DNA from: Pomacea canaliculata
Taxonomy: Eukaryota; Mollusca; Gastropoda; Architaenioglossa; Ampullariidae
Length of the DNA stretch: 64,000 nt
Reading direction: 5' to 3'
NCBI RefSeq assembly: GCF_003073045.1
Contig: NC_037590.1
Span: 33,922,327-33,986,326 of the forward strand
In this document: positions 66-42,800 of the stretch, piece after piece
How the letters are laid out: each line of letters starts with the position of its first letter
Position numbering within the stretch: the first letter of the stretch is position 1
Position numbers and translations under genes: made by a program
Notes under the pieces: generated by a model
What the model saw: only the letters and a program-made list of their open reading frames with translations
Databases searched by the model: none
What the model was told of the DNA's origin: nothing

Positions 66-2241
66 TTATTTCCGTTTTTTCCTTGAAGGTGGAGACTCTT
101 CATCAGTGTCAGAGTCAAATATAACACCTCTTTTTGATGTATTACTGCTAGAATTAGCTGCAGTGGGCTTTATTTTGTCGCACAGGTTGGATCTTGCTGA
201 ATAAATCTTCTCCATCAGAAGTATCTTCATTGTCAACATTGCAATCTCTTTTTGGACTGAAACATAAAAAAGCAGACAGCAACTACTGTAAAATGATGAA
301 TAAAAGTTGTGACCTTAAAATGGACAATATTTCAGTGACAAAAAAACCCTATGAAAGTACCGAAATTACTGCTGGTGGGCCCAAGACACTTTGCTTCAAA
401 ATTCATGATCAGAGTTAAAACTTGCTTTAGGGAAATAGAAATCAATTTTGGTTCCAAGGATACTTTGATAAAAACCACATTTCTGGCTTCAGTACTCAGA
501 AGACATCCTGCAAACATGGGGCCTTCATGCACCTGAAAGATTTGCTATACAGTCTAATGCAACAGACCATAGGGACAAACTGTAAGCAAAAAAGATCTAG
601 AAAGTAAACCCAGTTCATCAAAAACATAAAAATTCCACTGTGATACCTAAGACCACATGAACATTTAAATATATGAGAAGAAAATGGGGTCCCTGTACAT
701 GGAAGTTTTATAGTACATGTATCTTGAAAAATACTCAGACTGGTTCAAGTCTTTAACATCTGAAGGTTCTGATATGTTTTATAGAAGAGCAAAATTCTGT
801 GGAATGATCTAGGACTACAATGTCAGATAAAACACTTATGTTTTGCTATTTTCAAGTCTAAACGTTCTACAACACATTATATCAACTTCTCCTGGTCTTA
901 CCCTCGAGATTGCGATTCACGAGAAGATGCAGAAAACATTTCCTTGATTGAGCGTGATGGCGGTTCTACCACAGCCAAAGATTTACCTCTTCCTCTTCTG
1001 CCACCACGTGCGCCTCTTCCAGAAGCTGATTGATCATTAGTTTCATCTGACTTTGATTTTGACCTGCTACCTCTTCCACGACCTCTTCCCTGCCCTCGCC
1101 CTCGAGAAGTGCGAGAAGTGTTAGATACTTCGTCATCAAAACCTAAATCCATGCTATCATCCTCATCACTAAAAGCATTGTCTCCTTTTTTAGTCTGCAT
1201 GTCTTGAGCTCTTTTGATTGCTTCATGCACTTCTTCATCCTCTACTGTTTTCTCTTTCCGTTTTTGCTTGAAAAGGTGGATTTCTGCATCAATGTCATCT
1301 TGGTTTATGTTTCGGAGTTTTAAGTGTTTCTGAAAAAAAGGTAAATATTTTAATGGTCTTATGCAGGCAGGGAAGTTTAGCAGTTGCTGACCTTAGCAGG
1401 CCTCTAACTGGCAATCCCTTGCTCCAAAGCCCAATAACTTCAAGCCATCTTTTTCTTTTATTTCCAAAAAAACAACACTTAAGTCCAATAATAAAATAAG
1501 TAATATTACTACTGTTGCTTCTTTTTATAAGGTGATTTATGAACATCATGCAGCCAGTTTTATTGCTGCTAACATACTACCTACTGCACAACTCATTAAT
1601 ATGCATGTGAAAGTTCTGATCCTTGTTATTTGAAGATGATTGTCACTTAAGCAGAATGCATATCCACAAATTCCTTAATTTTTTGAAGCTCCTAAAATTT
1701 GGTTCTAAGCTAATACAAACCTGGGTCTTTTCAAGCTGATATCTGACAAGTTCTGAAATTGCTGCTTTCTCTTCTTTGTCAACAAATTCTTTAACAGCTT
1801 CCCCTAGTCCTCTTTCAGTAAGAACCTGCAGCTGACTTGACTGCAACAGTTTTCAGCCAGTCTTTGTGTGTTTTTTAAAGCATTGATCACAAGAAATTTT
1901 TTGTATAACTGTGGTATTTCAGAAATGTTTAAGATTAATAAACAGGAATTATCACTTACAATATTAAAAAAAATTATAGGTTAAAAAAAGATACACTAAA
2001 AGGAAAATGAGATGAATGCAGGCAAAACATATCAAAAATTCAAAATGTTGCAAACCAAGAATAAGAAAGGAAATAAAGTTAGTTTATACATACAGCTTCT
2101 GTTTTGCTAAAGTAGTCTCGCACCATATCCTCAACACGTGCTGCATCCAAGGACTGGGGTTTTAAGTTCAACAAGAGATTGCCATCTGTTGCATAAATAT
2201 TAAGAAAAATCTTCACTCTAAAAAATGTGTAATTTAGAAAC

Positions 2242-5200: not shown

Positions 5201-7539
5201 GAGGCAGCTGGCATGACCCAACTGGGAAGGGACGCCTAAAACCGGATCTGATGATGTGGTGTAGATGCGGCCCTATGCTCCCCTGGGAAATAAAGGAATC
5301 AGAAGAAGAATGATTTTCTAAAACATGACCTTTACATTTATATTACAACACAAGAGACACAAATCCAGTCAACGGGAAACAGATACATTTCTGATCTTAC
5401 CTATGTTTGCTTTGTTTAAATTCCCACTAGTCTTCTTTCGAGTAAAGTGTATTATCTGGTCTGGATTGGCAACTCTGTTCATGAAGTTCCTACCAAATCT
5501 GTCATACACATACAAATTCACAATGACACATTACAAAATCATGATCAACAGCATAGTTTCTGAAAATGAAATCTACAACTGCCTAGACATCCTCATTCTT
5601 TTACAGTTTTAAGAAAAGTCTTATGTTTGTGTTTCATCCACAAATGACTTTATCTATGCATGTGATTACTTGAGGTTAATTTTTTAAAATAAAAATCCTG
5701 AAAGACATCTTCGACACCACCAATTCTCTAAGACCAAACAGAGGTTTTGAATATAGGGTGCTATTCTGACTCCAGCTATGCTGTAAATGGCAGCATGAGG
5801 CAAGAGATGGCATTTGTATTTTGGTATAGACAATTCTCCCATCAGATTGTGCAATGTTGCAAAAAGATAAGTAACAGGTGGGACAAGATATGCATAGTCA
5901 CTTTAAACAATAATCTTTTATTTCTTAACATGCGTGTAGTGTTATAAATACACCTGTAAATGCTGAAAGTTTCAAATCCTGTGTAGTCAATCCTCAGCCT
6001 AATTAGTGGTTCTTTGGGCTGCTTTTTGTTGCCAGTGTGTTCCATAGCTGGCCAGAAAGTAAAATAAGCCTTCAGCAGAATGCTTAATACTAATTTACAA
6101 ATATAATAGGAACAATCTTTCAGTGATAACTGTGAGTGTGAAATTAGCCCGTATTTTACTGTGCACTTTTCTGAAATGTCTTGAAATCATCTGATAAACT
6201 GAAGTAATTAAGCGAAAGTGATACATTAGAAACAAATTTTGACTTGTTCTACCTGAGAATTGGCAAGAAAAAAAAATGGAAAAAAGGAATACTTGAAGGC
6301 ATAAGCATTACTTATCTGCCTAGAAACAAGGCAAAGCTTAATATTATCTCTTGTACTAACTGGACAAGAAGCACAGAACTGTATGCAATTTCTTTTTAAT
6401 TTGTTGGTTCAATATAACAAGAACATATTATAAAAATGATACCATTGTTTAATAGTAATGTGCTTATCTAACAAGGTGTCAGGGAACACGTGTTATTCCT
6501 TACCTGCTTTTTCAATGAGTTGTTCAACTTTCTCACTACAGAAGATTTCTACTTTTCTAACAGCATTCTGGTCTTCTGGATCAAGACTAGTCTCACTCAA
6601 CACAATGTTTTCCATGTAGAACTGTCGTACTGTCTCCAGTCTGATAGGAGTGATTTTGAAATCTTTACCACGTACTTGAAGTAGCCCAACATGTTTAGTT
6701 TTTGTCTCTCCCTCACTCAGTGAAGTTGCAATGGAGCTGCCAGGCTGTGTGATATAGAAACTTTGTTGATCATTCCACTCTGGTGTTAACCTGCATTCAT
6801 GCTCATGTCCCCAAAATACCAAGTCAAGGAATTCAGCCAGAAAATGTTCAGGAATGTAGTTTGTTTCACTGTGCTTTGCTCTGTTTTGATGCAACACCAT
6901 CAAGTTGAACCAGTCATCTTTGTTTTCACGAGGACGCAGCATTGTCACATTTTTATTTAAGAACAAGCGATGAAGTCTCTCATCACGGGCAGATCCAAGC
7001 CCATATAAAGCAAGCTTGGTGGTCCCCTTCTGCAGAAGAATTGGTGATAATTGGATTCGTTCCAGAGATGTAGTTTTCCCAAAGTAATTAAGAAGGCCTG
7101 CAGAATGGAGGAGATCCAGTGAACAAAGATTGCCTGCTCCAGTTGGATCATCATGGTTACCATGAATGGAGAAAACTGGGATCGAAATGTTTAGATTTAG
7201 ATCCTCATAATTCAGCATAGGAAATTTGCAGTGCTCAAAGTTGATAGACTGGTCACTGAGAAATTCAAACTGAATGGGCCTGTCTCCCATGCAGTACTTG
7301 CGCAACAGTGTTAAACATCCATGCATGATTTGACGAGAAGGTTTATTCTCATGGAATAGGTCTCCCCCCATTAGAATGAGGTCCACATTATGCTCTTGTG
7401 ATTTTTCTAGAATCTCTTCAAATGTCACAAGAGAGTCATTGCCTCTGACTGGATCACGCTCTGCAAACCCAAGATGGATATCAGTGACAAGCAGAATCTT
7501 GAATGTGTTGGAACTATCTTCATCCTTGTTGGCTGCCAT
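66..7539 (-). CDS. MRE11: MRE11 double-strand break repair nuclease (7 coding exons)
   Basis: Nuclease subunit of the nuclear MRE11-RAD50-NBS1 complex, which resects and signals DNA double-strand breaks. Exons read on the minus strand: 6504-7539, 5954-6047, 5401-5498, 2094-2185, 1721-1840, 902-1329 and a last exon starting at 256 or 147. All junctions have GT/AG signals and matching phase. Exon 1 carries the whole phosphoesterase core: TDIHLG (D20, H22), [17 protein letters not shown] and WGHEHE. Exons 2-5 match the capping and RAD50-binding region ([25 protein letters not shown]). Exon 6 has an acidic stretch and a Gly/Arg-rich segment ([12 protein letters not shown]), as in animal MRE11. 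Predicted length is about 650 residues against about 708 in human. The start at 7539 aligns with the human start; an upstream in-frame ATG lies in what looks like a 5' intron. An acceptor at 256 leads to a stop at 154, whereas one at 147 gives the conserved basic tail ending at 66. The identification is firm. Confidence 0.95.
2242..2270 (+). repeat. poly-A tract (29 A)
   Basis: An uninterrupted run of about 29 A lies in the MRE11 intron just before exon 4 as read on the minus strand. There it is a poly-T run upstream of the acceptor at 2186-2187. It lies outside the LINE target-site duplication, so it is not that element's tail. It may serve as, or have expanded from, a polypyrimidine tract. 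Confidence 0.8.
2347..5312 (+). mobile_element. RTE-like non-LTR retrotransposon (LINE), decayed, inside MRE11 intron 3
   Basis: The insertion is bounded by perfect 12-bp direct repeats ATTTTCTAAAAC at 2335-2346 and 5313-5324, read as a target-site duplication. It lies antisense to MRE11. Parts in order: an endonuclease-like stretch (about 2800-3230, with GNMNAKV and ATDHHLLVA-type motifs in different frames), a reverse-transcriptase region (about 3700-4700, with [27 protein letters not shown] and the catalytic-box FADDISLLS), and a C-terminal zone (about 4790-5280, with [20 protein letters not shown] and [18 protein letters not shown]). The 3' end is GAAGAAGAATG with no long poly-A. A length near 3 kb, one endonuclease plus RT unit and a simple-repeat tail fit RTE-type LINEs; the exact clade is not settled. 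The frame is broken by several stops and shifts, so the copy is dead. It contains an internal inverted rearrangement at 4201-4361. Confidence 0.85.
4201..4361. repeat. Rearranged inverted repeat inside the LINE
   Basis: Positions 4201-4234 recur as a reverse complement at 4287-4320 with one mismatch. Positions 4267-4284 recur inverted at 4320-4337, and about 4236-4258 recur inverted at about 4339-4361. The block order is A-B-C followed by A'-C'-B', so it is not a simple palindrome. It interrupts the RT region between the SVDRE motif and the [13 protein letters not shown] motif. Confidence 0.8.
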
Positions 7540-7592
7540 CTTATGGGTAACAATTTTCCAGTACACTTTTTTTAAGATGACTTGATTACCTG

Positions 7593-8600
7593 TTAAAAAA
7601 AAAAAAGCAGTTGCATGCATGGCAACTTCTACTTTGTAATGGCTTTATTTATATTTATTTTTCATAAAGCCATCTTTCACAAACATCTGCTGACTTTTTT
7701 TTTCTTAGTTTAGATTAACCCTTTGAATTTATAGACTAAAATAAAAGATCCATGGTTCTTTTCTTAAAGAACACACGTACACTACGCTATAAAACTATTT
7801 ACAAGAACGGATTAAAATAAGATGCCTGGGGAAGAAAAGTCTCAGGTTCAAATCTCCTTGTTACTCAGAAAGCAAAAGTTAACGAGAAATGTAGGTAATT
7901 AACGGCACCGACGTAGTTACCCGTAGATTTTAACCCCTACCATAGGGCGGGAAAAAATGGTTACAGCAGGGGAGGAAAGTCAGGGGCACAGGCGGTGCTG
8001 GCTGCTATAGTAATCATGCTCTCGCCTGAAACGTACCTTCACCTTATTCCCCCTAGTCCAAACATTCTTCTCTTCGCTTTCCTTCCACGTGGAAGCTTGG
8101 CCATATTTTAATGTCAGAGATTTATCTATTTTGTATTGATGGTACTCATAGTGAAACAGAAAGTAGTCAGAGCTTAGAACTTTAATCAAGTCGTATCTAA
8201 AAAAGTAACATTGATAAAATGCAAAGAAAAATGTTCCATTCTTTGTTACATACATATCACGATCCATAACCCTAAATGATAGACAAGTAGTCAAAGTTTG
8301 AAATCACGTTCCTTCGTGGAGGAAACTTGAATGTGGCTATCGGCTAGCCATGATACGAGGCCTACTTCCGATCATGCGCAATGACATGTTTCCATAGCAA
8401 TGTCTTAGGCGTCTGTCTGCTCATGGTTTAGTTACCATCATGTGAAAAAGTTGTTTAAAATGTCATTGTAAATTGACAGCTTTAAAAAAAAAAACGTGCA
8501 GCATCTAAATGCACATAGTTGATCAATGGTCTTGAACTGAAATAGGACAAATCGTTCCTCATTGCGTATCTGATTCACTAGGGGATTCAAAGAAGACAGG
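7593..8600. promoter_or_regulatory. Shared divergent upstream region of MRE11 and CFAP96
   Basis: MRE11 (minus) and CFAP96 (plus) start codons are 1.06 kb apart and point away from each other. A minus-strand acceptor (poly-T then AACAG, about 7584-7600) lies just upstream of the MRE11 start, so MRE11 probably has a 5' untranslated exon further out. A good minus-strand donor (AAG then GTACGT, about 8030-8037) is a candidate end for that exon. No TATA box is evident. A bidirectional promoter around 8.0-8.6 kb is inference from layout. Confidence 0.4.
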
Positions 8601-11600
8601 ATGGCGCAAGGGAAAAATGATATGGAACGTATTGGTCTCTTCCAAGAGATGACTTATATTACCATCGGAGACCGATACAGAAGCCTTGGTGCAGGTAATT
8701 TATAAATACTATTAAAAAGTGTAAAAATAACATTATATATAGTCTCTCTCTCTATATGTGGTTATTAGAAAAATGTGTCTTTTTATATCATTTTATAGCT
8801 ATATAATTATTTTGACGTCTTCTATATAGTTGTTTTGACATCTTCTGTATAGTTGTTTTCATCCTCCTCCTCCTCCACCACCACCTCATCATCATCATCG
8901 TTATCATCATCATCAGAATTACTTGATAGATATGGCAGATCTCTCCTATATAAGAGCACAACTTGTCTGCATGCAGTCTTCTCAGTACCACATAAATCAC
9001 ACATATGACTGTTCTTAATGAGCAGTCACGAAGGAACTTTTAAAAAAAATACCCAGATTGAGGGAACTATTGAGAACCGTTGAGGGTACCCAGAGAAAAC
9101 CATGCAGTGACACTATAGTCAGCCCTACAAACAGGTCGCCACCAGAGAGATTTTCAAACCCAAAACATGTATTGTTGTGGTGACAGGCTCTTTAGCCATT
9201 GTACCACCAGCAGCCCTTTAAAATACTGTTCTAGAATCCATTTTAAAGCATTGTTATAAGCATGCATCTGAAATGAGCATAGATTCTACAGCACAATATG
9301 TTGGATGGTTATAGCGACTGAGTGAATTGCCAAAATAACACCTTCAGCTATCCCCATTTACTAGGAACTTACTGCTCAAATTTCCACCAGTAAGTAGGTG
9401 GGGATATGTGTATCAGTATTATACAATACATCTTTATTGTCTATGTCTGGTTGCAACAGAGATAGAAATTTCCTTTGTTGCTGGGAGTTTCCACAGTCAA
9501 CCCAGAAAAAAATACATAAGAAACTGAAGAGATTATTCAGGCAGTTATACTCATGCTTAACCCCCTCATATGACACAATTGTCAGATACACTTCCTCTTA
9601 CTCTCTTACACACACTCACACACATTCAGACTAGGTACATTTGGGAGATCTGTTTAAGAGTGCTATATTGTGGTTGGTAAAAATGACATTATCGTTATTG
9701 AAACAACTATACATAATTATAGCTTATAATGCATTATTTATATGCCTGTAGGTTTTTAGTTTTAGCATATAGATACACACCTAACTGGCTCTTGTCAATA
9801 TATCAGTTAAAATTACATTTAATTAATATGAATGAAATACCCAACAGTACACTACAAGCATGTTTTGTTTCAGTGACGTTTAATGATAGTGCTGGGAAAG
9901 GCAAACAGATGTTGCCAGGTGGAAGCAAAGAACGATCAACAGGATTACAGGCAGGCTATTTCAATGAAAAGTTTAACAGAGTGTTTGAAGGAGAAAGCTA
10001 TTCAGATCCAATCAGACTTAAACGCATCTTTCGAATGAAAGAGTCAAAGAAGAACCTTGGCAAACCTTTTATGCCTACCAATGCAGAAAAGACAATGTAA
10101 GGATCATAAACTTTATAGTGACATTAAATCCTAGCATTTGTGTTTGTTTGTAAATTAACAGTGGTATCACTGATCAAGTTGTTAAAGGTCAATAAAAAAT
10201 AGAACAAAAACTGCATAGGAATGCACAAAAGAAAAAAACAAGTGAAAAATCCAGAATGTAAAAATAGCAAAAAAAATCACCATGTCTTGACAGAGATAGT
10301 TGTCATTTAGAGGTGACAAATTTTTTTGGAAGGTCTCTGTTTTAACATGGTTTTTAGTGTTTATACTTTTTTACCTGCAGACCTATACATTAATTCAATT
10401 CCACGCCATGCTGATGTTTACTTACATTGTCTTGACAACATTTTTATACAGGAATGGGCTAGGTACATTTTATGGGACAATAGGTGGAGGAGTGACAGCA
10501 TTTAGTCCTCTCTCAACAAGATCAAAACAAGCTACAATACCAGGCAAAAATATGTATACAAACCCAGGCAAGAAAGGAACTGGATATGGGTAAGAAAGCT
10601 ACTTTTTTCTCCTACCTATCATTAGTTTTAGGTCAGATGATGCAATCAGAAAACTCTGAATACTGTCCACTTATTCAGAATATTGCAGACTTGCAGGTTT
10701 TAAAGGAATATACTTAAAGGAATTTAATTCTATGGATGTTGCTTTTGCATGGGTCTTTTGTGCATTATAAATTTATGACATAAATCCAAATTAGAAACAC
10801 ATTCATATCAACCTCTCTGTTTCACATTCTTATCTAGGCCTCTCACTTACACTCACGCACACATAAATGTGCACACACTTCAATAACAAAATTAAGTTTG
10901 AGTTCTCCACTGCACTGACTGCTGGTTGTTTTTCTCCATCAGACAAGAAATAGAACATCACTGATCAGCTGCTGGTAATAAGTCATAATAGAATTTCATA
11001 ATAACAACTGGCAGCACTAAAATTGTCTTAATATGTGCCTTACATTTTTTGTCTGGCAAACGTCTTTAATCAATGTTAGGAAATAACACAACCAAATGCC
11101 ACATCATATGACCATGAAAGTCTAATGTTAGATTTGATGAACACTGAAAGTGAATAAGGACAAACAACTACTCCATTAAAATCTTAGATAGTTAATGCCT
11201 ATTCTGGTTAATGGTTTTGTTTACATTCAGTGAGTAGTTGTCATATTTCAGGTATATTGGTGTCACACTTGGAAAGTATCCCAACAATTTGTCAGACCCA
11301 TTTGACACTGACAAAGAACGGGCAAGGGTGGGTCATTTAGCATATCTGACCTTGCATACAGGTGTGCTAGTGACTAAATGCTTGTCAGAACTTAATTGTG
11401 TGCTTTGCTGTATAATAACATTTCTCTACTTCCCTTCAAAGATACAAACTACTTGTTACAAACTTCTACAGTATACATATATATATATATCTTTGATTAC
11501 TTAAACCTCTACTTTATCTAAGCACAGTGCATAAAGTATCTGAATATATTTCAACAGATTTAAAAAAAATTATTTTGGTACGCAGTTTTCTATTTATTAA

Positions 11601-14600
11601 CTTATAAGAGTTTTCTCCCTTAACTTTTTTTTAAAGAAAAATGCAGTCAAATGAAAAAAGCATAAGTGTAGACAAAAGTTTACAAAAATCTCCATACATA
11701 GAGGTAACTAAATATACTTCAGCTATCTATAGTTAGAGTTGCCATCAAAGCCTCAATCTAAATTGTTATTAGTTATACTTATATAGATATATTTATTGAA
11801 AGAATAACTGATTAAGCAATAGTCCAGAGCTGTTCTTAATATAAAAAATGCTTTAAACTAATGAAATTAGCTGCTAGTTTTTTTAGTCACCTGTTTGGAA
11901 GAAAGATTACAAAAATATTATTGCACCATCTGAAGGAACAAAACTTACAGGGGTACAAGTAACACAAGACATAAAATAACTGCTGTCTTATATGAAAAAA
12001 ATAAACATAAGCTTAAAAACATATTTTGCATACCTTTCTGTACATTTGTGCCTTTCTGTTTCACGCAAAATGTAGAGCTGTTCATGTGCACATATGTATA
12101 TATACACATGCAAGTAGACAGATAAATTCTTAATTTTGTTTATATGCATACGCTATATATACATACTATTAATATATAGTTTTCACAAAATTAAACAGTT
12201 TGAAGTACATATTTTCATCTGCAATTATCTCTAAAGAATCTAAAAGCTGTGCATTTACATTAAGCATAACCTTTGAGTGCTTATAATGATAGTTATATAT
12301 GCTTTAATAAACTGTAACACTTTATTATTCCTCTGAGTGCGTGAATGCTGCAGCTTCTCTTGAAATAGTTGTTCTTCATGCTGTTCTTATTTTATGACAT
12401 ATACTATTGCACATCTTACTGTTGCCTAACTAAACTTTCTTCTTTTTTTTTTATTTACTGCTGTGAAGCTATATCAATGTCACAATTGGTCCTTACCCAC
12501 CAAATGTGACTGATCCTTATGACCGCTCTCGGATGATGGCTCAGGTTTGGCAGCAACTTCTTAATGCTTCTTAAAGCTTGTAGCAAGAGCTTTTGCAGTA
12601 AAGTCAGTTAAACTAAGATTTTACAAAATGAGCCTAGCACAGCTGTCTTTGTTTTAAAGTTCATACATATTAATATTGTACCTGTTGTGAAAGTGAGAAA
12701 CATTATTAGTGTATAGGTCAGTGTGTCATTGTGTCTGTCCATCTGACGTGTGTATAAATGTATATGAGATTGTGAATATGAATATGAATGAAAGACAGAT
12801 ATAGGACAAGGATGCATTGGTGAGAAAGAAGTAAGCTTTTGACCTTTTAAAAGAGTATTTTGTGTCGGGTTTTTTTGTGGTGGGATGGGGAATGAGAGGT
12901 GAGTATATGAAAGAGTTACTGTTAAAAGCTTGTCAAAAACTGGGTCAGTAAGGTATCAGTTTATAAACTTGAGTTTACACAATTACTCTGTGAATGTTTT
13001 TTATAAGCCTATACATCATTAATAATGGAAACCCATACCACCACAATAAAAAAAAAACCTTCTGCACCGAGGGGTTCAAACTGACCTAAATTCTTCTTGA
13101 TATTTTATGTGACATACAGAAGGAAAACCAAGGCCATAAAAAATTACTGAAAGGTGGACCATTTCAACTGAATATGCATCCACAAGACTACTTTAATGGA
13201 AATCCTTACATTCTCACCAAGCCTTTGCCACCAATGAGGAAGACTGGTACTTCATCAGGTCCTAAAAATGTAACTCCATTTAAACCCAGCTCTCCTGGCA
13301 AAAAGGTATTAGTAAATAATGTAAAAAAATATGATGACATGCAAGAATTATAAATTTATAGATTGACAGGTGAGAAAGGGTGGCATAAGATATGATAAAT
13401 TGTTTTATGAAGATTCCAGGGATGTGGATAATTCTAATCATTTTCTGATAATTTAAGGCAAAAAATGTTGAAAACTTGTTATATCTTTCACTAACAGATT
13501 TGTGTTGAAGCACAAACATGCAAAGCACATACAGCAGAATACCATTAACAAATTGTGTTCTACACATCTGAACCTGTATTCTAGCTGTTACAGTAAACCT
13601 ATTCTTGTTTGTACTTTTATGAGCACAGAGAGGAAAAAAATAATCTCAGATTCATTTATCGTAACTCTCATCCTGTTAATTAGTTGCTGAAGGCTTCTTG
13701 AAATATTGTCAGATTTGTAAAAATCTCATAGATGTGGTGCATGTTTAACTGCGGCTAGTATATTAGTGCCCTTTAAACCAAATTTTTTAACCAAAAATTG
13801 TATCCTCAGTTAGTGCAACCGATATTTATGATGACTTTTTAAAGATACAGCGCAGTCATTAGAACACCTTCATTAAGAGATCTTAGCATATTCTAAAATG
13901 ATCATTTGATAATTCGAATTAGTGAATTACAGATTTACAGATAGGTATTCAATGGGCAAATCTTTTGTCTACTAAAACCAGCTACAATTAACTGCATATT
14001 GTTGGAGTGTTGTGTCCTTTTAACATCTTATCAATAGCAGCATTCTTGTTTTTTCAACTTTAAATGTCATACATATACACAATTTCAGCTTGGAGGTGGA
14101 AAACACGGTTCTTTTGACCCATATCCCTCACATTCAGTTGACCCATTTGGAGTGAAAATAAAACGACCCGTCAATGTGGTTAACAATACTGGCAAGATCT
14201 ATGTGCCACCAACAGGACCCAAGTCTAGACCAGTCAACTCTATTGTGGATCAGAATATCACAAGGTGGGTGATAAATCTCTATGCTTTTGTTAATTTTAA
14301 AGTTTGTTTAGGTGTTCAAATGATTTATAAGGGATTACAAACATTATCTTCTTATGTAACATTTTAATTTAGTTCTGCATTATAAATCAATATAAATTGT
14401 TTATACTCACTGTGTTTGGCCTATTTGCAGCTAAAAAAGAAAAGAAATTTTTAAAATGCATTTACTGAAGGCACAATAAAACATGCCTATACTTCTGAGA
14501 ATGTTTAAATCATTTGCTCATATCCCTTTAAAAGTCAAGGTTTGCTGCATAAAGTTCTTGTTCTTATTATCTTCTTGTTTTGTAGAAAGTTACAGCAGTG

Positions 14601-15263
14601 TGTTTTCTAACTGTGGGTTTGTACTTGTACTCAAGTGAAAGATTTAAAATATGTTATTTTACATCCCCATGGAAGACTTACACAATTTTTAAAGAGTTTA
14701 AAATTTTAGAGAATCTTTGACTGCATGTGTTCATGCACATGTGTGTGTTAGTCAGGGTCACCTCTCATTATAGGACCATCACATTTTCCTTCAGCTTGTG
14801 CAGCATGTTTCCTAAGTATAAAGGTTACTCCCACCATGACAGTTGGAATGATGATTCTACCCATATTACTTTCGTGTCTTATCCTTAACTTTATACAGGT
14901 ATTCCACATTGTGGATAAGTTAGAGTTTTGGTTTGTAAAGTATGCATAGAAGTCCAACTTTCTTGATGCAGAGTAGTGTTTGCAGCCAGGCACAGATGGT
15001 CAACTATATAACTGGCCAGGTGTATGCTAAGTGTTTTGTAACATTCAGTGAAGGACATTCTCATATTTTGCATATTTTACTCTGTATTATTCAATAGATC
15101 TAGTCATATGCAAAGTCATAATTTCTTCTTCTTTCAAAAATTAAATATGAGAAGTGGGTAACAAGGAAACAAAATTTTTATTTACATTTGTTGTAATGAC
15201 ATTTTTCTTTGTACTTGCAGGTCAATCAACATCCAGAATTATCGTGCCATGACAGTTATGTGA
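8601..15263 (+). CDS. CFAP96: Cilia- and flagella-associated protein 96 (C4orf47/UPF0602 family), 7 coding exons plus one alternative exon
   Basis: Small protein of cilia/flagella and the centrosome region; its biochemical role is poorly known. Exons: 8601-8694, 9874-10096, 10452-10589, then 11252-11327 or 12469-12544, then 13120-13305, 14089-14264 and 15221-15263. With one version of exon 4 the sum is 936 nt, or 311 residues, close to the human protein (about 309). Motifs shared with the vertebrate family, in order: DMERIGLFQEM near the N-terminus, KQMLPGGSKE, LQAGYF, NLGKPFMP, YGTIGGG, NPGKKGTGYG, LLKGGPFQLNMHP, FKPSSPGKK, GSFDPYPSHSVDP and PPTGPKSRPVNSI. Splice signals and phase agree at every junction. 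The gene faces USO1 tail to tail. AATAAA signals near 15965 and 16128 are candidate mRNA ends. Identification is firm. Confidence 0.95.
8862..8931 (+). repeat. Compound TCC/CAT trinucleotide microsatellite in CFAP96 intron 1
   Basis: Runs of TCC, CAC and CAT/TCA triplets with small interruptions. The apparent acidic and methionine-rich reading frames over it are products of the repeat. Confidence 0.75.
9040..9218 (-). mobile_element. tRNA-derived SINE-like sequence in CFAP96 intron 1
   Basis: On the minus strand an A-box-like motif (complement of 9179-9198, TGGCTAAAGAGCCTGTCACC) is followed by a degenerate B box (complement of 9147-9161, GGGTTTGAAAATCTC). The spacing fits a tRNA head, and a non-tRNA body follows down to about 9040. 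Boundaries are not defined by direct repeats. Confidence 0.5.
11252..11327 (+). other. CFAP96: CFAP96 exon 4a (alternative, mutually exclusive with 4b)
   Basis: A 76-nt exon preceded by TTTCAG and followed by GTGGGT. It completes the split glycine codon from exon 3 and encodes a 25-residue segment beginning YIGVTLGKYP after it. It ends in phase 0, ready for exon 5 at 13120. It is homologous to 12469-12544 and to the YANITIG segment of the vertebrate protein. Confidence 0.85.
12469..12544 (+). other. CFAP96: CFAP96 exon 4b (alternative, mutually exclusive with 4a)
   Basis: A second 76-nt exon with a long pyrimidine tract, acceptor GTGAAG and donor GTTTGG. It has the same entry and exit phases as 4a. 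It encodes a 25-residue segment beginning YINVTIGPYP, with about 11 of 25 residues identical to 4a (Y-I-x-V-T-x-G-x-Y-P pattern, then D-P-x-D). Using both exons, or neither, breaks the frame, because 76 is not a multiple of three. Confidence 0.85.
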
Positions 15264-25400: not shown

Positions 25401-28400
25401 CATCTATCTCTATATTACTCATGTCTCTGTGGTGATTATGATGTAAACAAACCTACAGATGTGTATAAAAATTAATGATTATGGTCTAAACAAACCAACT
25501 GCCAGTTATAAAACACTATGATGTTGACACAGAAATGATATTGCCTACTGGTATATTTCTCGTGTCTTTTCTCCATTGTTAAGTGACACAGAACTGTGTT
25601 AATGTTCAACAACCATTTTCTGTCACTGTACTTTTTTAGTCAGGAATTAAGGGGGCACTTTTTCGGCAAAAACCTGGAGAAGACGGACCAAAACTAAAAA
25701 AATCCTTTTTACCAGTATGGTGAACACCATTCATTTAATGCTTCTTTTACAGTTTACACCAGTGAATGCAAATGTCTTGATAGCTCTATAGATCAATTCC
25801 ATCAAAACACCCATATTGAACGAGATATTCTAAAGCTTAATTGCATCATACACCTGTATTAAATGCGTTAAAGCACTCACAGACCTTGGAGGATTGGAAG
25901 GTGCCAAGACTGAAGCAAAGTACTCCTGATTAGCCTGGTTCCCACGAATGACCTCAGAAACAGTGTTGATTGTCTGTCAGAGATAACCAGTCTTGATTTT
26001 CTAAACATAATGCATTTCATGAGTTTTGAGACAGATCTATCAAAGATAATTTATTCCTCCGATCTTGGTAATCTATACAATAAGATGATATATCCTAAGG
26101 CAGAGATGCTGTTGAAAGCATACCATGGTAATGATACCAAAACACAATGATATTTTCTGTTAAACAAAATTTAAGCTGCTTTATTCCAAAAGCAGTATAC
26201 TTTCACTTTTGAAAGACATGTGTTGGCATAAAAACAATAGTCCAAAAGCCTCATGAAGAGTGAAAATATGAGCCATATTGCTGATAAGAGAGAAAAGAGA
26301 TAAGACAATTTCAGCTCAACACAGTCACTACATAACTAGAGGCAGGAAGCACAGATATCCTGACAATTTAGGATACAATGCTTTAAAAAAAATATATTTT
26401 CATATGAGATTTTGAAATACTCTTAGGGTATCCACTTTCATTTTAGCAATTTACGGCTTGGAAATACGTTCTTATTCATGGAGTAAATGTAATTTTTTTG
26501 ACTTTCCATATCTGGCAGAAAGAAAAGAGTTCCTCAAATAGCTTAAACCGGTATTAAAGGTAGTAATAGTATTAAAACATTTACTGTGTAAAATTTTGAG
26601 ACTTTCTGAGACTACCCATTTCCATTAGCCATTGAGACAGATGAAGCAATATTTCACATCACATATAACATTTAGAGCTTATTTATTATTTTTCTGCATG
26701 GTTTTATTTACTGAGGACAAACCAAAACTGTGCTTCTGGACACCTAAACCAGACTTGGATGCAAGTATGAAGATGAAAGAACCAGTTGTTGCATGCAACT
26801 TTGTGAGGAGAGCAATCCCTTTCTCTCTTCCATTTACCTTCTTGCTCAAGAAACTGCATAAAAAGGCATCCTAGAATTTTACAGGGGTCCAAAATAAATT
26901 ATTACAATGAAGGTAATTAAGTGGCAGTCACAGCCACTGTAGTCATTGTTTTATTATTATTACTTTGCCTATAAAACTGACAAAAATTTGCACATGCGCT
27001 AAGTTGGCTTCAGGGGCAGCAACTCAGGCCATTTATAGAAAAAAAATGTGATGAGAGAAAAAGAAACAATACTTAGTCTCTAAGATAACTTATAGGGTAC
27101 TTGACAAACACATATTCATTTTCCACATTATAAAAGTTACTTTCTATTGATGATACACAGAAAGAGTTAAGCTCACCTCTGTCAGGACATCAGCTGGCAC
27201 ACCACTAGCCATAAGTATAGAACACAACTGTTGCAACAATCCTGTGAAAAGGAAATGAAATACAACAATTAGCAGGAACCTCATAAGACTGATATTCCTG
27301 TGAAGATTCATAACATCTTTGTAACTAAAAACAGTTTACTTAATAATAAATGATATGAAACTTTACCTGGATTAAAATTTGTACGTAAGATTAACTCCTG
27401 GTTTATTGGTGTAAACTCTTAAGAACATTCTAGTAAATATTTTAATGTTTATACCCATGTGAACACTACTACATACGCAATCCAAAAACAAACAAAAAAA
27501 AAAAAAGAAAGGAAGAAAGAAAAATGTCTTACCACACTGGTTCATTACTTTCTGGCAAGCCACAGTCTGATTCTGGGGGTTGCTAGGGGAGACCAGAGTG
27601 CGCACCAGCTGCAGGATGAGGTGTATATTGGTGACTTTCTGTGCTGACCAACCAGATTGCTTGCTTGGTGCTGATGCTGAGCCCAGCTCCAGAAATGGTG
27701 AAATGCGTTGAATGTAGCTGCCCTCTTTGAAAAAGTTTTGGTTGGATGCATTGTTCTTCAAGAGGTTGAGAAGAAGTAAAAGGCAGTCCTCCACTACTAT
27801 GCCTAAAAAATGAAATCAAAGGGAAATTAGCAGTGACTCTTTGTAAAATGTTCTGAACAAAAACATTCTGATCTAAAAACAAAACCAACACTACTTCATT
27901 TTTATTTAACAATTTATGGCAAATAAAACATTTTTAATTCAAAGGTTTATGAATACTATTTAAGTTAATTCAGAAAATTTTATTTTTTTCATTCTGCCAT
28001 AACTTCTGTGAAGGAGATGAAAGACAAAAATCAATAATACTCATACCTATCATGTCATTTTATAACTCTAACCTACCTCCATCACTGGCCCCTTCCTCCA
28101 CAATAATATCTAGAATTCTCTCAAAGGCATTTTCAAAAGCCACAATCTTTTGAATGTTTGCATGTCCCTTTGTCAGCTGATTTAAAAGCAGCAAAGCCTA
28201 GTAACGAAAAGAAATGTTACTGAATGATTTCTTTACAGTAAACTCAGATAACAGATTATTAAGTCATTCACGATACTTGAACCTTTTTCATCCAGCTTTA
28301 ACATTTTCGTAATGTAAGCTGACAGGTTAGGGGAAAAAAGCTACATATGCATGGAGTTTACTACTCTTCCTGCTTTATAATAATGGAACATGAATAAGAT

Positions 28401-32758: not shown

Positions 32759-34284
32759 TTAGGTAGAAGATATTCGAAACCCCGCAAACGTTGTGTAAAA
32801 TTCTCCCCAGAACTGACTCCCCAGCGTTATCCTGACCATGATTCTCTCCCCTTGAACGAGGTGTGTAGTCACCATGGTGCTGCCGTTTTCAAAATTTGAG
32901 TAACCTACGTGCGCACGTGCCAGAGTCGACCCGTTTTTTGTGATGTCGAGAAACAAGCGTTCCTCGTCTAGGTTGTGAAGCATCGTCTGCAAAATAATAA
33001 TAAAAAAACCACTCTTCATTCCTGTGCTGTACAAAATACCTGCTTAAAGGTCTACAAGAGTGCAATGATTTGTTTTCAAACAACTAGGTTGAGCTCAGAA
33101 GAGAGCACTTTTAGCAAAATCAGTGTAAAACTGTTTCGTTCTCAAGGTACAAGCCCACAAACATAATAAGCACATAACAAACCTAATATCAGGAATGTAC
33201 ATAGTGTACGTAGATGCACTTACGTCCTCAACGCTACAGTAGAGGATCTGCAATGATAGGTGAATGTGGCGTTTCCATTGACATTCATGACATTTTATGG
33301 CAGAGTGTGTGTGTGTGTGGAGTAAATGTTCACTCATATTTTTTTTTTTTTTTTTTTGACTGGGGAGGTACCTTATAATGAGCGTAAACCATAACCAGAT
33401 AACTATAGTAACTTGAAAAAAATCGTATTAACTCTTGTCGACTATGATAGCAATAGAATGGAATGGCATTGTAAGAATATATTTGAGAAACAACTACAGC
33501 GACTGTTACAATCTTATATTGTCTCGTTTTTCTAAACACTGGAAATAGATTATTCAGCAGATTTACCTGAAGGAAAAAGACATAGGATCCTGCCACTGGG
33601 GCCGTGAAGAAGCCTGTCTCAGGATCGTAGCCATCGCCGGCGTTGTACACGACGTCGTCAAAAACGATCGTTTCGTACAGCCGCAGTCCATGGACATCGG
33701 CCAGCTTCTTCCTCGCTGTGAAGCCCACCGCACGCTGGGTGTCATCTTGTTTAAAGCAGATTATGTTTGAGAATAGAGGTTAAAAAAAAAAAAAAAATCA
33801 CTAAGAAAAAGGATCACTAAAAAAGCGATTTTTGATTTCTTTCTTTTGGAAAAAAAGCCACCTTGACTGTATTTCATGACATTCATTTACAAAAAGTATT
33901 TATAAATTAGGTATGTATATGTACGTATAGCGTTGAATGGACGTGTTATTGGCTAAAATAAGATCAGAAGGAGGCTAGATAGGCTAACAAAATAAATGTA
34001 AAAAGTACACATGAAGAAGGTTTAGAAACTTGGCCTGTATAGTTTCTTCTTGTGTGTTTGTAGACAGGTGTGTAGCGTTTACCGATTCTGTTTTTGTTGG
34101 CTTCGACTTGCGCCGTCAGGTGAACCAGTTGTTGACTTAGCTGCTCCACAACAGCCTGCAACGGTGAGACGTCATCAGATCGTTTGCTGATACAGTTGAT
34201 AACACAAGAGGATCCTGGCGACAGTACAGCCGAAGCCAGCACCAAAATCATGCTTATTGTGTTAGCTGCAACGAATGAACCCAT
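32759..34284 (-). CDS. Secreted C1q-domain-containing protein (4 exons)
   Basis: Exons on the minus strand: 34083-34284, 33567-33745, 33224-33247 and 32759-32986. The total is 633 nt, or 210 residues, with all phases matching. Exon 1 encodes a signal peptide (hydrophobic SMILVLASAVLSPGSSC) and a short coiled-coil stretch (LQAVVEQLSQQLVHLTAQVE). Exons 2-4 encode a globular C1q domain: AVGFTARKK start, YDPETGFFTAPVAGSYVFFL core, and a C-terminal end GEFYTTFAGFRIS. There is no collagen repeat, as in many mollusc C1q proteins, which often act as soluble lectin-like recognition proteins in haemolymph; that role is inferred from the family. Exon 3 is only 24 nt. The upstream flank is part of a tandem duplication starting at 34296. 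Confidence 0.9.
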
Positions 34285-36940: not shown

Positions 36941-39858
36941 ATTAGAGTTGCTTCTACGAGACTTACCCCATCCCGCCATTTCTCTCTCTCTCTCTCTCTC
37001 TGTGGTCAGCACAGTGTCACTTTCAATTTAACCAGAAGAAAAATGTAATTTATAAACTACCTGAATCAGTCGTCTTTATCGGTCTCCGGTGGTAATAAAG
37101 CCATCTTTTTGGAATAGGATGACATCTTTGACGAGTTTTCGATCTTGCTGCAGTCACATGTATGGAGACAAAGATTTCCATGGGGTCATCTTCATTCTTA
37201 ATTGTAAGCCCGCCAACGAATCAGATTATACAATCAAAAGCTATCGACATCCATTTAGCTTAAGACTTTTGTCTGTCCACGAAAAAATATGCGTTTGACT
37301 GTCAGTATCAAAAGGTCAGGAAACAAATAATTTTTGACAGTTCTCCTTTTTGGACAGCTTTTATAATTTAATTTTTCAGGAATGTCAAGAATTATATGTT
37401 CTTCTCCTGTCACCGTGCGATATTTTAGTGGACGAGAATGCTGTAACATCCTTCCTCACCAGGATTAATTCCCCCAAAGCCTGGGAACAGAATGGTGTTT
37501 AATGGTCGTATTCTTGCTTCATCTGTTCCTGAACTGTCAGTTATTTCCGAAGTTTAGGAAGACCCCAATTATTATTCCAGTACAAAAAAAAGTCGCATGC
37601 AAAAGAATGAAGTTCAGGCTAACTGCTTCGAATCCTATTTTTTCCAAGTGATTGGAAAGGGTTGTGTGCAATCAGTCAATGCACCATTGGTGGATGCCGC
37701 CTGCTTGACAATCCATGGTAGCAAGTTGATTTTACAATTGGACAGAAGAGTAAATACGTTTGTATTCTGTTCATGTGCTTCTCGTTTAATACTACACTTA
37801 CTTTTACGACTTCTAGCAAAAGGTTAACATAACCCTAATACTTTCGATGAAGGAGTTTCTGCGGAACCGGCCACAAAGGGTAAGAATGGAGGTACAGTCT
37901 TAAACTGTCTATACAGGGACCCCAGGGGTGTATTTTACGTCAATGTTGTTTTCCATATATACCAATAAAGCCTTGACAGACGTTTCCAACCGTTCCTTAT
38001 CGTTGATTAAGTTTGCATGTGATATATGATGCTGGTTGGTCGACAAGGACGAGGACTCACTGGCGAGCTATTTCCTTCTGGTTAATTTGAAAATTCGTGG
38101 TTTAAAGAAAGTATTTTGGTGCTTAATATTTTAAAACTAGAGAACTGGTCCTGGTAGAAGGAAACACCAATTAACATGCTTCATTAGTGATCATTGGCAG
38201 TGAGAATATGTCGAACAGGTGCAAAATAGTAAACCTTGCCAAAGTGAGCCAATTACTGCGTTGTGTAAACACTGATATCATTTTGGGAAAATACATCGAC
38301 ATCTATTACTGCTAAGTTACATAAATTTTTGGGTCAGCTGCCCTGTCTTTAAGCTGGTATATCGAAGCCTGATCGAGAGCATTTTAGCATTCAGTCTCTG
38401 TGGTTCAGCGTTCTCTCTCTCTCTCTGTCAAGCTTGATCTTATCATGTGTGCTAGCATTTTTTAAAAACAGATTAGCAAGTGTGGCCTGACTAATCAGTT
38501 TTTTCTTCCTAACCACAAGCACATTGGCGCCATAAATTTCTGTAGCCAGACTGATCTGTTTTTCACTACATGGCTAAACTATACACCTCTGTCGCACCAG
38601 CTGTTATTTCTTTCTTACGACGATGACAAGGTATAAGTGCTGACACACACATAAGTAAATTTAAAATGAATTTATTTATATTATCTACACATGCAAACCA
38701 ATTCCATCCTACTCGACACATACCTAGCTCATACACCGCTAGAACCTGTCGCCTACCTAGTTTGAGGTACATGAGCAACTTGAATGTGGACCAGAGCACC
38801 TACACGGTGCACAGGTATTTCGATATCTCGTACTCGAAATAATCCTAATGGGAAGGAATGACCCCCTCCCGCTGCGGCAAACAGGGTGCAGGCGTGAAGG
38901 TGTAATCATGCCCTGGTGTCTCGATTTGTATTTTTGTTGTAGTTTATTGCTTGTGGGAGCTCCCAACAAGAGAAAATCTTTCTCTATGATGCATTGATTC
39001 TCCATATATGGCTTTGAGATTTAGGATAAAGATGTGTGTGTGGGGTCTATGTGTGAGAAGGTATATTCACAAATGCTATGTTTTAAAGTGTATATATTAT
39101 GTATCAGTATAGGAAGATGCTCGATCGGCTTTTGGGGGGTTGCAAACTCCATGCTGACAGTTAACGAATCAACCTCTCTGTTCTGGACAGAAGAGGACAA
39201 TTAAGACCTATTTTCATGAAAACAACCTTACTATGCAGCTGTATATGCAATTGCCATGAAAATGCATCATTGCGCTTACTCGGAATTATAGTCCACCCAT
39301 CAGCCCGCGAAATAAGGAAGTCTACTTTCGATTTCGTTGAACCGCCATTTGTGCGCCAACATCCTCATCTAGACGTTAAGCTCGGGGGATCCGCCGCCGA
39401 CAGACACCAGACAGTGGAATTTGCAGTGTTCACGGTACTGAGTATTTAAAATCCAACTTCGCCCCCTTCCCCCGATCCCCCACCGGCCGCCACTTCCATC
39501 TTGTCGAACGCAGAAGATGAAATGTGCGCGACAGTCATAATTTAAGATGTGGTGATCTCAATGCAACCAGAGCTGGGATTAAGTTGATGCTGGTATTTAT
39601 ATGTTATTAAATGTTTTATAAGTTTCCAGCCTTGCATTGCTTCTTTATCAACCATTATGATTTTGTTATTAACGTTTCAGCATATTTGCACATAAAAGGT
39701 CACTTTTTTTTAACCAGGAAGTAGAAAGTTTTCTCTTGAAAGCAATTTTTAAAAAGCATTGAAAAAAGTATAATCAAGTCGTTAAGAATCTAGTTTCTTA
39801 ACTGTCTTTTACAGGTAACTGGATGATCTAAAAGTGGGAGGCAGCTGTGACCCATAAG

Positions 39859-42800
39859 ATGGCAGCCACCAAAGATGAAGCTAACACATTCAGGATTTTA
39901 CTTGTCACTGATGTCCATCTTGGATTTGCAGAGCGTGATCCAATCAGAAACCACGACTCCCTTGTCACATTTGAAGAGATTCTGGAAAAAGCCCAAGAAC
40001 ATAATGTAGACTTTGTCCTGATGGGGGAGACCTATTCCATGAAAACAAACCTTCATGTCATATCATCCATCAATGTTTAACGCTGTTACGCAAGTACTGC
40101 ATGGGGAAGAGGCCCATTCAGTTTAAATTTCTCAGCGACCAATCTGTTAACTTTAAGCATTGCGAATTTCCTGTGGTAAATTATAATGATCTAAATCTGC
40201 ATATTTCAATCCCAGTTTTTTCTATTCATGGTAACCATGATGAGCCAACTGGACCGCACAGTGTGGGATCACTAGATATCCTCCATTCTTCAGGTCTTCT
40301 GAACTACTTTGGGAAAACTACATCTCTGGAAGAAATCCAGATACCACCACTTCTTCTGCAGAAGGGTAGCACCAAACTTGCATTGTATGGACTTGGATCT
40401 CTCCATGATGAGAGCCTTCGACAAATGTTCTTGAAAGGAAATGTGACGTTGACTAAACCTAGTGAAAACAAAGATGACTGGTTCAACTTGTTTGTGCTGC
40501 ATCAAAACAGAGCCAAGCACAGGGAAACTAATTACATTCCTGAGATTGTTTTGCCTGAGTTTCTTAACTTGGTATTTTGGGGCCATGAACATGAGTGCAG
40601 GTTAGACCAGAAAGGAATCCTAGAGGTTTCTGTGTCACACAGCCTGGCAGCTCCATTACTACTGCACTGAAGAAAGGAGAGGCAAAAGCTAAATGTATTG
40701 GGCTTCTTGAAGTAGAAGGTAGAGCTTTTGAAATAAAACCAGTCAAACTGGAGACAGTACGACAGTTCTATATGGAAGACATTGTGCTGAGTAAGACCAG
40801 TCTTGACCCAAACGACATAAATGCTGTTGAAAATGTAGAGGAATTCTGCCGTAAGAAAGTTGAACAACTGATAGCAAAAGCAGGTGGGAATGAAAAGACT
40901 ACAGATCGATTAACATGTTGACATTCAAGCACATGTGTGTATGATTCCGAGAGAGTTTTTGTGATTTTATTTACCTCAATTGAAGCTTCACCTAATTAAA
41001 TTGGGATATGAATCATTAAGCAACAAACTGCTGACAATGAATGAATGTATACTTCCAACACATACCCTTGAACTAGAGATTAAACTTATTTATATTTTAT
41101 ACAGCCATCTGCTAGTGCAACGGTTAGCACCAATCCAGTGAGGACTGGCTGTCTTGGGTTCATATTTTTTCTTGGCCACACTTTCTTTCTTAGCATATCC
41201 ACCTGCTTAGCTGGCTGCTTAACCCTAACCCTGATATAGCCTTAGTTGCTGGCTCGGCATAAAACACCAATTGCCCTTTCGTCTTGTATGCAGCCATCTT
41301 GTTAACTCTCTTGGTGCTAACATTCACTTTGTGTACCCTACCTTATTTTTCATTGTTACAGGTCATAGTTACTGTTTATTATTGCTTGAGGTAATATGGA
41401 ACAGAGAAGTACACAAAGATACAACTCATTTGAACTCACAGACATCAATAAAAAATAGTATATTGTAAAATAGTATTGTTCACCTTGTTTTCCCTTTCTT
41501 ACTAGACAAGGAACACACTGGAAACAAAAAGCAGCCGAAAGAACCACTCATAAGGCTGAGGATTGACTACACAGGATTTAAAACTTTCAACATTTACAGT
41601 GAGTTTAGAATATTACATGCATGTTAACATAGAAAAGTTATTGTTAGTCATGATGTGGAATCTGATCTATGACCTGTTTTCCTAATTTTGTGCAGCAAGA
41701 GAGGAAAATTGTTCACATCAATATCATGACCTCACAAATTGCCATCAAAGATTATAGTCTGAGGTCAGGCTAACTAACATCCATTTCTCTTTTACCATGA
41801 ATATTCATCATTGCACTGGAATGGCTCAGTATTGTCATTTAGGATTTTGAAAACAAAATCATTTCACTAAGTCTTAGTAATAAGGTCATTTGCATAGTAT
41901 TACCTTGTCATTTGTGTTCTGATGCCTATTTTTCTTGTATGGTTGACTGTCTGTTCATTTTAATTTTTTTGGTGGAGTGCATTGAGCTTGCATCTACAAA
42001 TGGAGATGTGCTTTACAAGCATTTTAATTTATGTAAATTATAATTTATTATTGTTATTCATATAGACTTTTTTAAATACTATAAAATAACAACAGTGGCC
42101 AAGCTGTTGCTGATGTGATTTTCAAAAATTATGCCGTTGATGCTAATATTGACATATCAAACTGGCTGCATAAATGTGTATGACAAAACAGATTTGGTCG
42201 GAACTTCATGAAAAAAGTTGCCAATCCAGACCGGATAATACATTTTACTCAAGAGAAAACTGGTGGATGTTCCAAAAAAGATGCTGGTAAAGTTTAAAAG
42301 GCATCCATTATTCACTTGGATTAAATTTGCTTCTTAAGTGGTCTGATATATAGTAAAAGTATATATTATAAAAGAGATCACATAAATTTTTCATTTAACA
42401 CCTAAATCACTGATTTAAGTCATCAGTCCTCGCAAGTATTTTTTTCAGGTTTTGAAACTTAATTTTTTTTAACATATTTCTTTTTATCAAAAAAAAATTA
42501 AATGCTATAAATAATATTTATGATATTCATACACCAGAAGGAGATTCCCTGGATACAGCACGTGTTGAAGACATGGTGCGGGCCTATTTCAGCAGAGCAG
42601 ACCTGTAAGCACCCATAATTAAGTCAGTAGTTAGTTGTTAATTTCTCTGTCTTTCTACTCTTGATGTTACAAAATTATAACTTAAATTTTTACTTTGTAT
42701 GTGTACATTCATTTTATTATATTAGTTTTGGATACTTAGACATTGTTAATCATACATTTTCTATTTCATGTAGTAATTACTATGCTTTAAGTTTTTTAAA

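Follow-up and report, generated by a model that had tools for sequence, protein, structure and literature searches.

Does the CFAP96 gene of the gastropod Pomacea canaliculata encode one ciliary protein or two? The question is raised by a 64,000-nucleotide stretch of the genome (contig NC_037590.1, positions 33,922,327 to 33,986,326 of the forward strand; here called the window), in which this gene, also known as C4orf47, carries two adjacent and homologous exons of 76 nucleotides (nt), termed 4a and 4b. An earlier sequence-only reading had proposed that they are alternative versions of one 25-residue segment, of which a transcript can hold only one. The present analysis makes it likely that 4a and 4b arose by tandem duplication of CFAP96 exon 4 and now serve as mutually exclusive exons, from which two isoforms of 311 residues each would result. 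The case is built on the anatomy and homology of the pair, on protein constraint and on a reading frame that only transcripts with one of the two exons keep. Tandem duplicated, mutually exclusive exons are a well-known and ordinary kind of splicing event; no report of the CFAP96 pair was found, among the matches listed, in literature on C4orf47/CFAP96 or on mutually exclusive exons in molluscs and Pomacea or in cilia and axonemal proteins.

Anatomy of the exon pair

The gene model describes one plus-strand gene with seven coding positions between 8601 and 15263, in which all introns are GT-AG and either choice of exon at the fourth position yields a protein of the same length (Table 1). That the gene is CFAP96, as the sequence-only reading had named it, is borne out by a full-length match of both isoforms to the Pfam family PF15239 (CFAP96-like; profile positions 1-295 of 296), with 344.4 bits for the 4a isoform and 346.4 for the 4b isoform against a cutoff of 27 bits. 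Chains named CFAP96 or C4orf47 in the PDB are homology matches for both isoforms as well, with scores for the 4a and 4b isoforms, respectively, of 347.0 and 348.1 bits to 8otz, 338.0 and 344.3 bits to 9cpc, and 342.8 and 337.1 bits to 8snb, which is presumably from sea urchin sperm. Both isoforms also match more distant chains in 9y6s, an entry from Leishmania tarentolae (passages of PMC12637542); of the mammalian entries, 8otz and 9fqr come from bovine sperm, 9cpb from bovine oviduct and 9cpc from porcine brain ventricle (passages of PMC11779644). The exon 4 segment is recognisable from trypanosomatids to mammals. It occurs once in each of the bovine and porcine PDB sequences, in keeping with the single copy, around the motif YANITIG, that the sequence-only reading had given for vertebrates.

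Exons 4a and 4b lie where they were first placed, each exactly 76 nt long, preceded by AG and followed by GT (ttcag/G...AGG/gtgggt for 4a; gaag/C...CAG/gtttgg for 4b). They are entered in a common phase, a split GG/N codon that reads glycine with either exon, and both are left in phase 0; the junction positions 10589, 11327, 12544 and 13120 are the same in the gene model. A mutually exclusive pair is expected to consist of neighbouring internal exons that are homologous, agree in length and phase, and have an open frame and splice dinucleotides; all of these features are found here. The two exons share 39 of 76 bases (37 differ) and 12 of 25 residues (13 differ), a count that replaces the "about 11" residues given earlier, and their BLOSUM62 score is 72. 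All 13 of the unlike positions fall within residues 153-177, the remainder of the protein being identical. The identical residues belong to the patterns Y-I-x-V-T-x-G and YP-N--DP-D, apart from a single alanine close to the end; of the last seven residues, six differ. Tryptic peptides that separate the isoforms are YPNNLSDPFDTDK (4a) and GTGYGYINVTIGPYPPNVTDPYDR (4b).

Comparison with relatives does not single out an ancestor. Identity to 8snb is 9/25 for 4a and 5/25 for 4b, identity to 9cpc is 6/25 and 9/25, and identity to 8otz is a tie at 8/25; as each exon is closer to a different relative and 8otz is tied, neither is plainly the original. More specifically, G3, L6 and K8 are common to 4a and 8snb, N3 and I6 are common to 4b and the mammalian chains, and K8 is common to the bovine chain and 4a.

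The same anatomy is found in human mutually exclusive exons and tandem duplicated exon substitutions, which in the passages drawn on here (PMC5740500, PMC9741552) include homologous internal exons that lie next to each other and agree in length and phase, with lengths not divisible by three and a conserved family-typical core. The difference is that the CFAP96 pair is known from the DNA of one genome. Neither CFAP nor C4orf47 occurs in the main text of PMC9741552, the part of that paper covered by the search. Exons 4a and 4b of OGDH, as described in part of PMC7969005, are a further likeness, being an ancient exon duplication that supplies two forms of one protein segment.

Chance, constraint and age

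The pair stands far above all other segments in the window. A scan of both strands for AG-76-GT gave 438 segments, of which the 104 open in the phase of exon 4 were scored; 4a and 4b were the top two of these against each of 8otz, 9cpc and 8snb, with scores of 22-42, and the third-ranked segments scored 7, 5 and 1. Among 35,396 open 25-mers from six frames, scored as the sum over 8otz and 8snb, they again came first and second (74 and 62; next, 36). When a 67-residue piece was compared with PF15239, the real segments gave 86.4 and 89.1 bits, and all eight shuffled segments fell to 42.4-58.8 bits, keeping the score of the flanks only, with the family information gone in every shuffle.

Divergence without selection would be expected to look different. 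In a neutral simulation, 37 random differences were introduced into 4a or into 4b in 100,000 runs per start; on average 5.6 residues stayed identical, and the frame remained open in 32% of runs from 4b and 24% of runs from 4a. Twelve identities were reached in 10 of 100,000 runs per start, and a BLOSUM62 score of 72 in none of 200,000. These results suggest that most of the divergence between 4a and 4b probably occurred under protein constraint and, as the family-specific residues are also kept, neither exon resembles a dead copy.

The genome was searched over 440,159,624 bases in 24 contigs, only the best candidates being scored: all six matches of the 4b isoform at E<=1, and all four matches of the 4a piece at E<=10, lie inside the CFAP96 gene, and thus no paralogue, nor a retrocopy from a spliced transcript, was seen among these candidates. 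That the tandem is an assembly artefact or an allelic copy is extremely improbable, nothing having been found in favour of it: the copies differ at 37/76 bases, the 1.4-kb region matches one place in the genome, and what was found in the way of repeats from exon 3 to exon 5 is limited to short ones, among them eight families of direct repeats (14-24 nt), with 4a and 4b not flanked alike. A pattern scan of bacterial and archaeal contigs for relatives gave 33 pattern matches, none of which was confirmed.

At 12/25 identical residues, 4a and 4b are more alike than either is to the three deuterostome chains (5-9/25). Because the copies are closer to each other than to these chains, they probably duplicated after protostomes and deuterostomes had separated, though long ago. 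The dating is weak, since 25 residues are too few for a tree.

Reading frame and the choice of exon

Division of 76 by three leaves a remainder of one, and the earlier argument that including both exons or skipping both would shift the frame is upheld by the gene model, where each such transcript meets an early stop. With 4a and 4b joined, the stop falls at codon 192, inside 4b and 393 nt before the last junction; with both left out, it falls at codon 162, in exon 5 and 331 nt before the last junction. The usual rule for nonsense-mediated decay (NMD) sets this distance at 50-55 nt. Since both stops lie far before the last junction, the two RNAs are expected NMD targets and, since both lose the frame, CFAP96 would be made by one-exon mRNAs only. 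The statement that exactly one exon must be chosen thus holds for productive mRNA, but it does not stand as proof that the spliceosome never joins both, and frame alone does not explain how splicing chooses. Mutual exclusion is read here as being enforced at least by frame and NMD: both one-exon transcripts would be made, and RNAs with both exons or with neither would be cleared by decay.

A similar arrangement is described for U2AF1 exons Ab and 3, where RNAs that include both or neither of the duplicated exons acquire stops and then undergo NMD (passages of PMC5224494); those exons differ by seven residues, and the CFAP96 exons by 13/25. Among human clusters of mutually exclusive exons, 377 (60%) include exons not divisible by three, and joining reads were present in 83 of these 377 (passages of PMC5740500).

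Unproductive RNAs could also be the purpose of the arrangement rather than its by-product, the second exon serving mainly to lower the level of CFAP96 through transcripts with both exons or neither and adding no second protein. In both off-frame products the distance from the stop to the last junction does exceed 300 nt, and the interval from the AG at 11230 to the 4a acceptor contains an in-frame TAG. A pure poison exon, however, needs no conserved CFAP96 residues, and 4a and 4b both have them, which makes such a switch very unlikely.

The splice sites of the two exons differ most at their 3' side. Predicted U1 pairing is -9.0 kcal/mol for the 4a donor and -6.9 kcal/mol for the 4b donor, both values falling among those of the five constitutive donors, which span -4.8 to -9.6 kcal/mol. 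Constitutive exon 6 has the same donor hexamer as 4a, GTGGGT. The 4b acceptor has the highest pyrimidine count of the seven acceptors (15/20), follows a candidate branch point and a long pyrimidine tract (Table 1), and has its nearest upstream AG 100 nt away from its own; it ends in AAG, the other six in CAG. The 4a acceptor has the lowest count (10/20) and three AGs situated 14 to 21 nt upstream. Splicing to the first of these (11229-11230) would put Gly-Glu-stop, through the in-frame TAG, before 4a, a possible extra unproductive route.

Exon choice would probably be set by a trans-acting factor at these unlike 3' splice sites, acting on the pyrimidine tract of 4b or on branch point use at 4a. 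In this respect the CFAP96 pair would again resemble U2AF1, where regulation of the exons is tied to an unlike arrangement of pyrimidine tract and branch point (passages of PMC5224494).

Two other routes to exclusion were considered and rejected. By eye, no donor is like the U12 consensus motif and the sites look major-type, which speaks against U2/U12 incompatibility. Steric hindrance requires the upstream donor and the branch point to lie no more than about 50 nt apart. Judged by distance alone, such a block is unlikely here, with an intron of 1141 nt between 4a and 4b and an AG-free stretch of 100 nt before 4b. OGDH differs in this respect, exclusion there being imposed by branch points that lie 25-41 nt away from the upstream donor (passages of PMC7969005).

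Pairing between introns was compared with shuffled sequences. In an ungapped helix test, 133/200 shuffles were as good for intron 3 with the middle intron, 51/200 for intron 3 with intron 4 and 5/200 for the middle intron with intron 4, the last figure uncorrected for six comparisons; within single introns the values were 65/200 (intron 3), 10/200 (middle) and 41/200 (intron 4). In a whole-intron duplex test, which is near-global and hard to interpret, 25/60, 14/60 and 1/60 shuffles were as low for the same three intron pairs in that order. Both tests point to the pairing of the middle intron with intron 4, and the other comparisons are unremarkable or mild. An AT-rich helix of 12079-12110 with 12747-12778, from one of the six comparisons, would enclose 4b and is possibly a looping element around it, but no conclusion is based on it here. 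Intron 4 also holds an inverted repeat (12870-12889/13032-13051; 20 nt, 90% complementary) of no unusual strength (41/200 shuffles as good), and its fold has z = -1.67, with 6/100 shuffles equally stable. Motif strings for RBFOX, STAR/QKI, PTB, NOVA, MBNL, CELF and ESRP were listed without a chance control and are used here only to the extent that the pyrimidine tract and CTAAC of 4b are named.

Several points weigh against mutually exclusive use of the two exons. The pair is known here from the DNA of one genome alone, and in a human survey with a threshold of one junction read, 1,399 of 6,541 candidates were verified and a further 1,741 had partial support, although its candidate list took in much weaker similarity than that of 4a and 4b (passages of PMC5740500). 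With its GTTTGG donor and AAG acceptor, 4b has less than ideal splice sites, and the 4a acceptor has AGs a short way upstream and the fewest pyrimidines of the seven. Mismatches between the exons number 12, 10 and 14 at the three codon positions, a third-position bias that is only mild, so the case for constraint is one of residue conservation and not of codon-position signal. Knowledge from DNA alone, the weaker donor and the AAG acceptor of 4b, and the competing AGs upstream of 4a would also suit a gene in which one copy is spliced in practice and the other, although intact in appearance, is a duplicate of recent origin or in decay. Such a duplicate is unlikely: the exons differ at 37/76 bases, yet both remain open with dinucleotides, length and phase intact, and family residues are kept far beyond neutral expectation (0/200,000 in the simulation; shuffle test), whereas a copy dead for much of the divergence would be expected to lose such features.

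Possible use of the isoforms and neighbouring features

C4orf47 is described as a centrosome-associated protein (passages of PMC9891878) and is among the proteins mapped in motile ciliated cells (passages of PMC12772120). Searches of structural papers found no description of the position of CFAP96 in the structure, with no occurrence of the name in the passages of PMC10973386 that were covered. The most likely use of the two isoforms, by analogy with other axonemal proteins, would be to fine-tune a component of the axoneme or centriole to the type of ciliated cell, for example to epithelial cilia or to sperm flagella. A few parts of the epithelial axoneme are replaced in mammalian sperm by paralogues, as with CIMIP2A/B and RSPH6A/RSPH4A, and according to the authors it is not clear why epithelial and sperm doublets use different paralogues (passages of PMC11779644). 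In Ciona, tubulins, actin and one further protein occur as different isoforms in gill cilia and in sperm flagella, under different gene IDs (passages of PMC4427456). These resemble the CFAP96 pair as cell-type versions of one axonemal part; they differ in being separate paralogues or gene IDs, where CFAP96 would use the splicing of one gene. In humans, three quarters of the isoforms that arise from tandem exons show tissue specificity (PMC9741552).

In cattle, the CFAP96 sequence is identical in the sperm (8otz, 9fqr) and oviduct (9cpb) entries, which suggests a single form; a bovine variant is still compatible with this, since UniProt or NCBI was the source of the sequences in these models (passages of PMC11779644). 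If both snail forms are made, they offer a natural test of a short CFAP96 segment, with two versions of equal length in one animal, and would be a case of axoneme diversification by alternative splicing as against the paralogues and gene IDs of mammals and Ciona. Caenogastropod snails show sperm dimorphism, with two sperm types. It is tentatively suggested that 4a and 4b may label different ciliary machines in one animal, for example the two types of sperm, or the cilia of epithelia and the flagella of sperm.

Table 1. Coordinates of the CFAP96 exons, of candidate splicing elements and of neighbouring features in the window.
Feature	Position	Strand	Length or sequence	Basis or remark
CFAP96 coding exon 1, from ATG	8601-8694	+	94 nt	Gene model; Pfam match starting at residue 6
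CFAP96 exon 2	9874-10096	+	223 nt	Gene model; PDB chain matches
CFAP96 exon 3	10452-10589	+	138 nt	Last two bases start the split codon (..TAT GG/)
Alternative exon 4a	11252-11327	+	76 nt; YIGVTLGKYPNNLSDPFDTDKERAR	Gene model; exon comparison; chance tests
Alternative exon 4b	12469-12544	+	76 nt; YINVTIGPYPPNVTDPYDRSRMMAQ	Gene model; exon comparison; chance tests
CFAP96 exon 5	13120-13305	+	186 nt	Starts at codon boundary; gene model; PDB chain matches
CFAP96 exon 6	14089-14264	+	176 nt	Gene model; PDB chain matches
CFAP96 last coding exon	15221-15263	+	Through stop TGA (15261-15263)	Gene model; PDB matches
AGs upstream of 4a acceptor (11229-11230, 11233-11234, 11236-11237)	11229-11237	+		Read from sequence
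Candidate branch point CTAAC (12426-12430) and long pyrimidine tract before 4b	12426-12468	+		Sequence match
MRE11-like nuclease gene	6493-7620	-		Metallophos, Mre11_DNA_bind
Possible C-terminal piece of MRE11-like gene	898-1230	-		Assigned by GR-rich look alone
Second MRE11-like stretch	39808-40885	+		Three pieces, three frames
Arm_vescicular (vesicular transport factor) piece	27375-27794	-		Pfam
C1q domain piece	33333-33728	-		Pfam
Weak 7tm_1 receptor piece	55748-56302	-		Under Pfam cutoff

Outside CFAP96, the MRE11-like nuclease gene is arranged head to head with it, the starts of the two open reading frames (7620 and 8601) being about 980 bases apart, and the two genes may share a promoter. 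On the opposite strand from this gene, the second MRE11-like stretch has 63-71% identity to it and looks like a broken partial copy.

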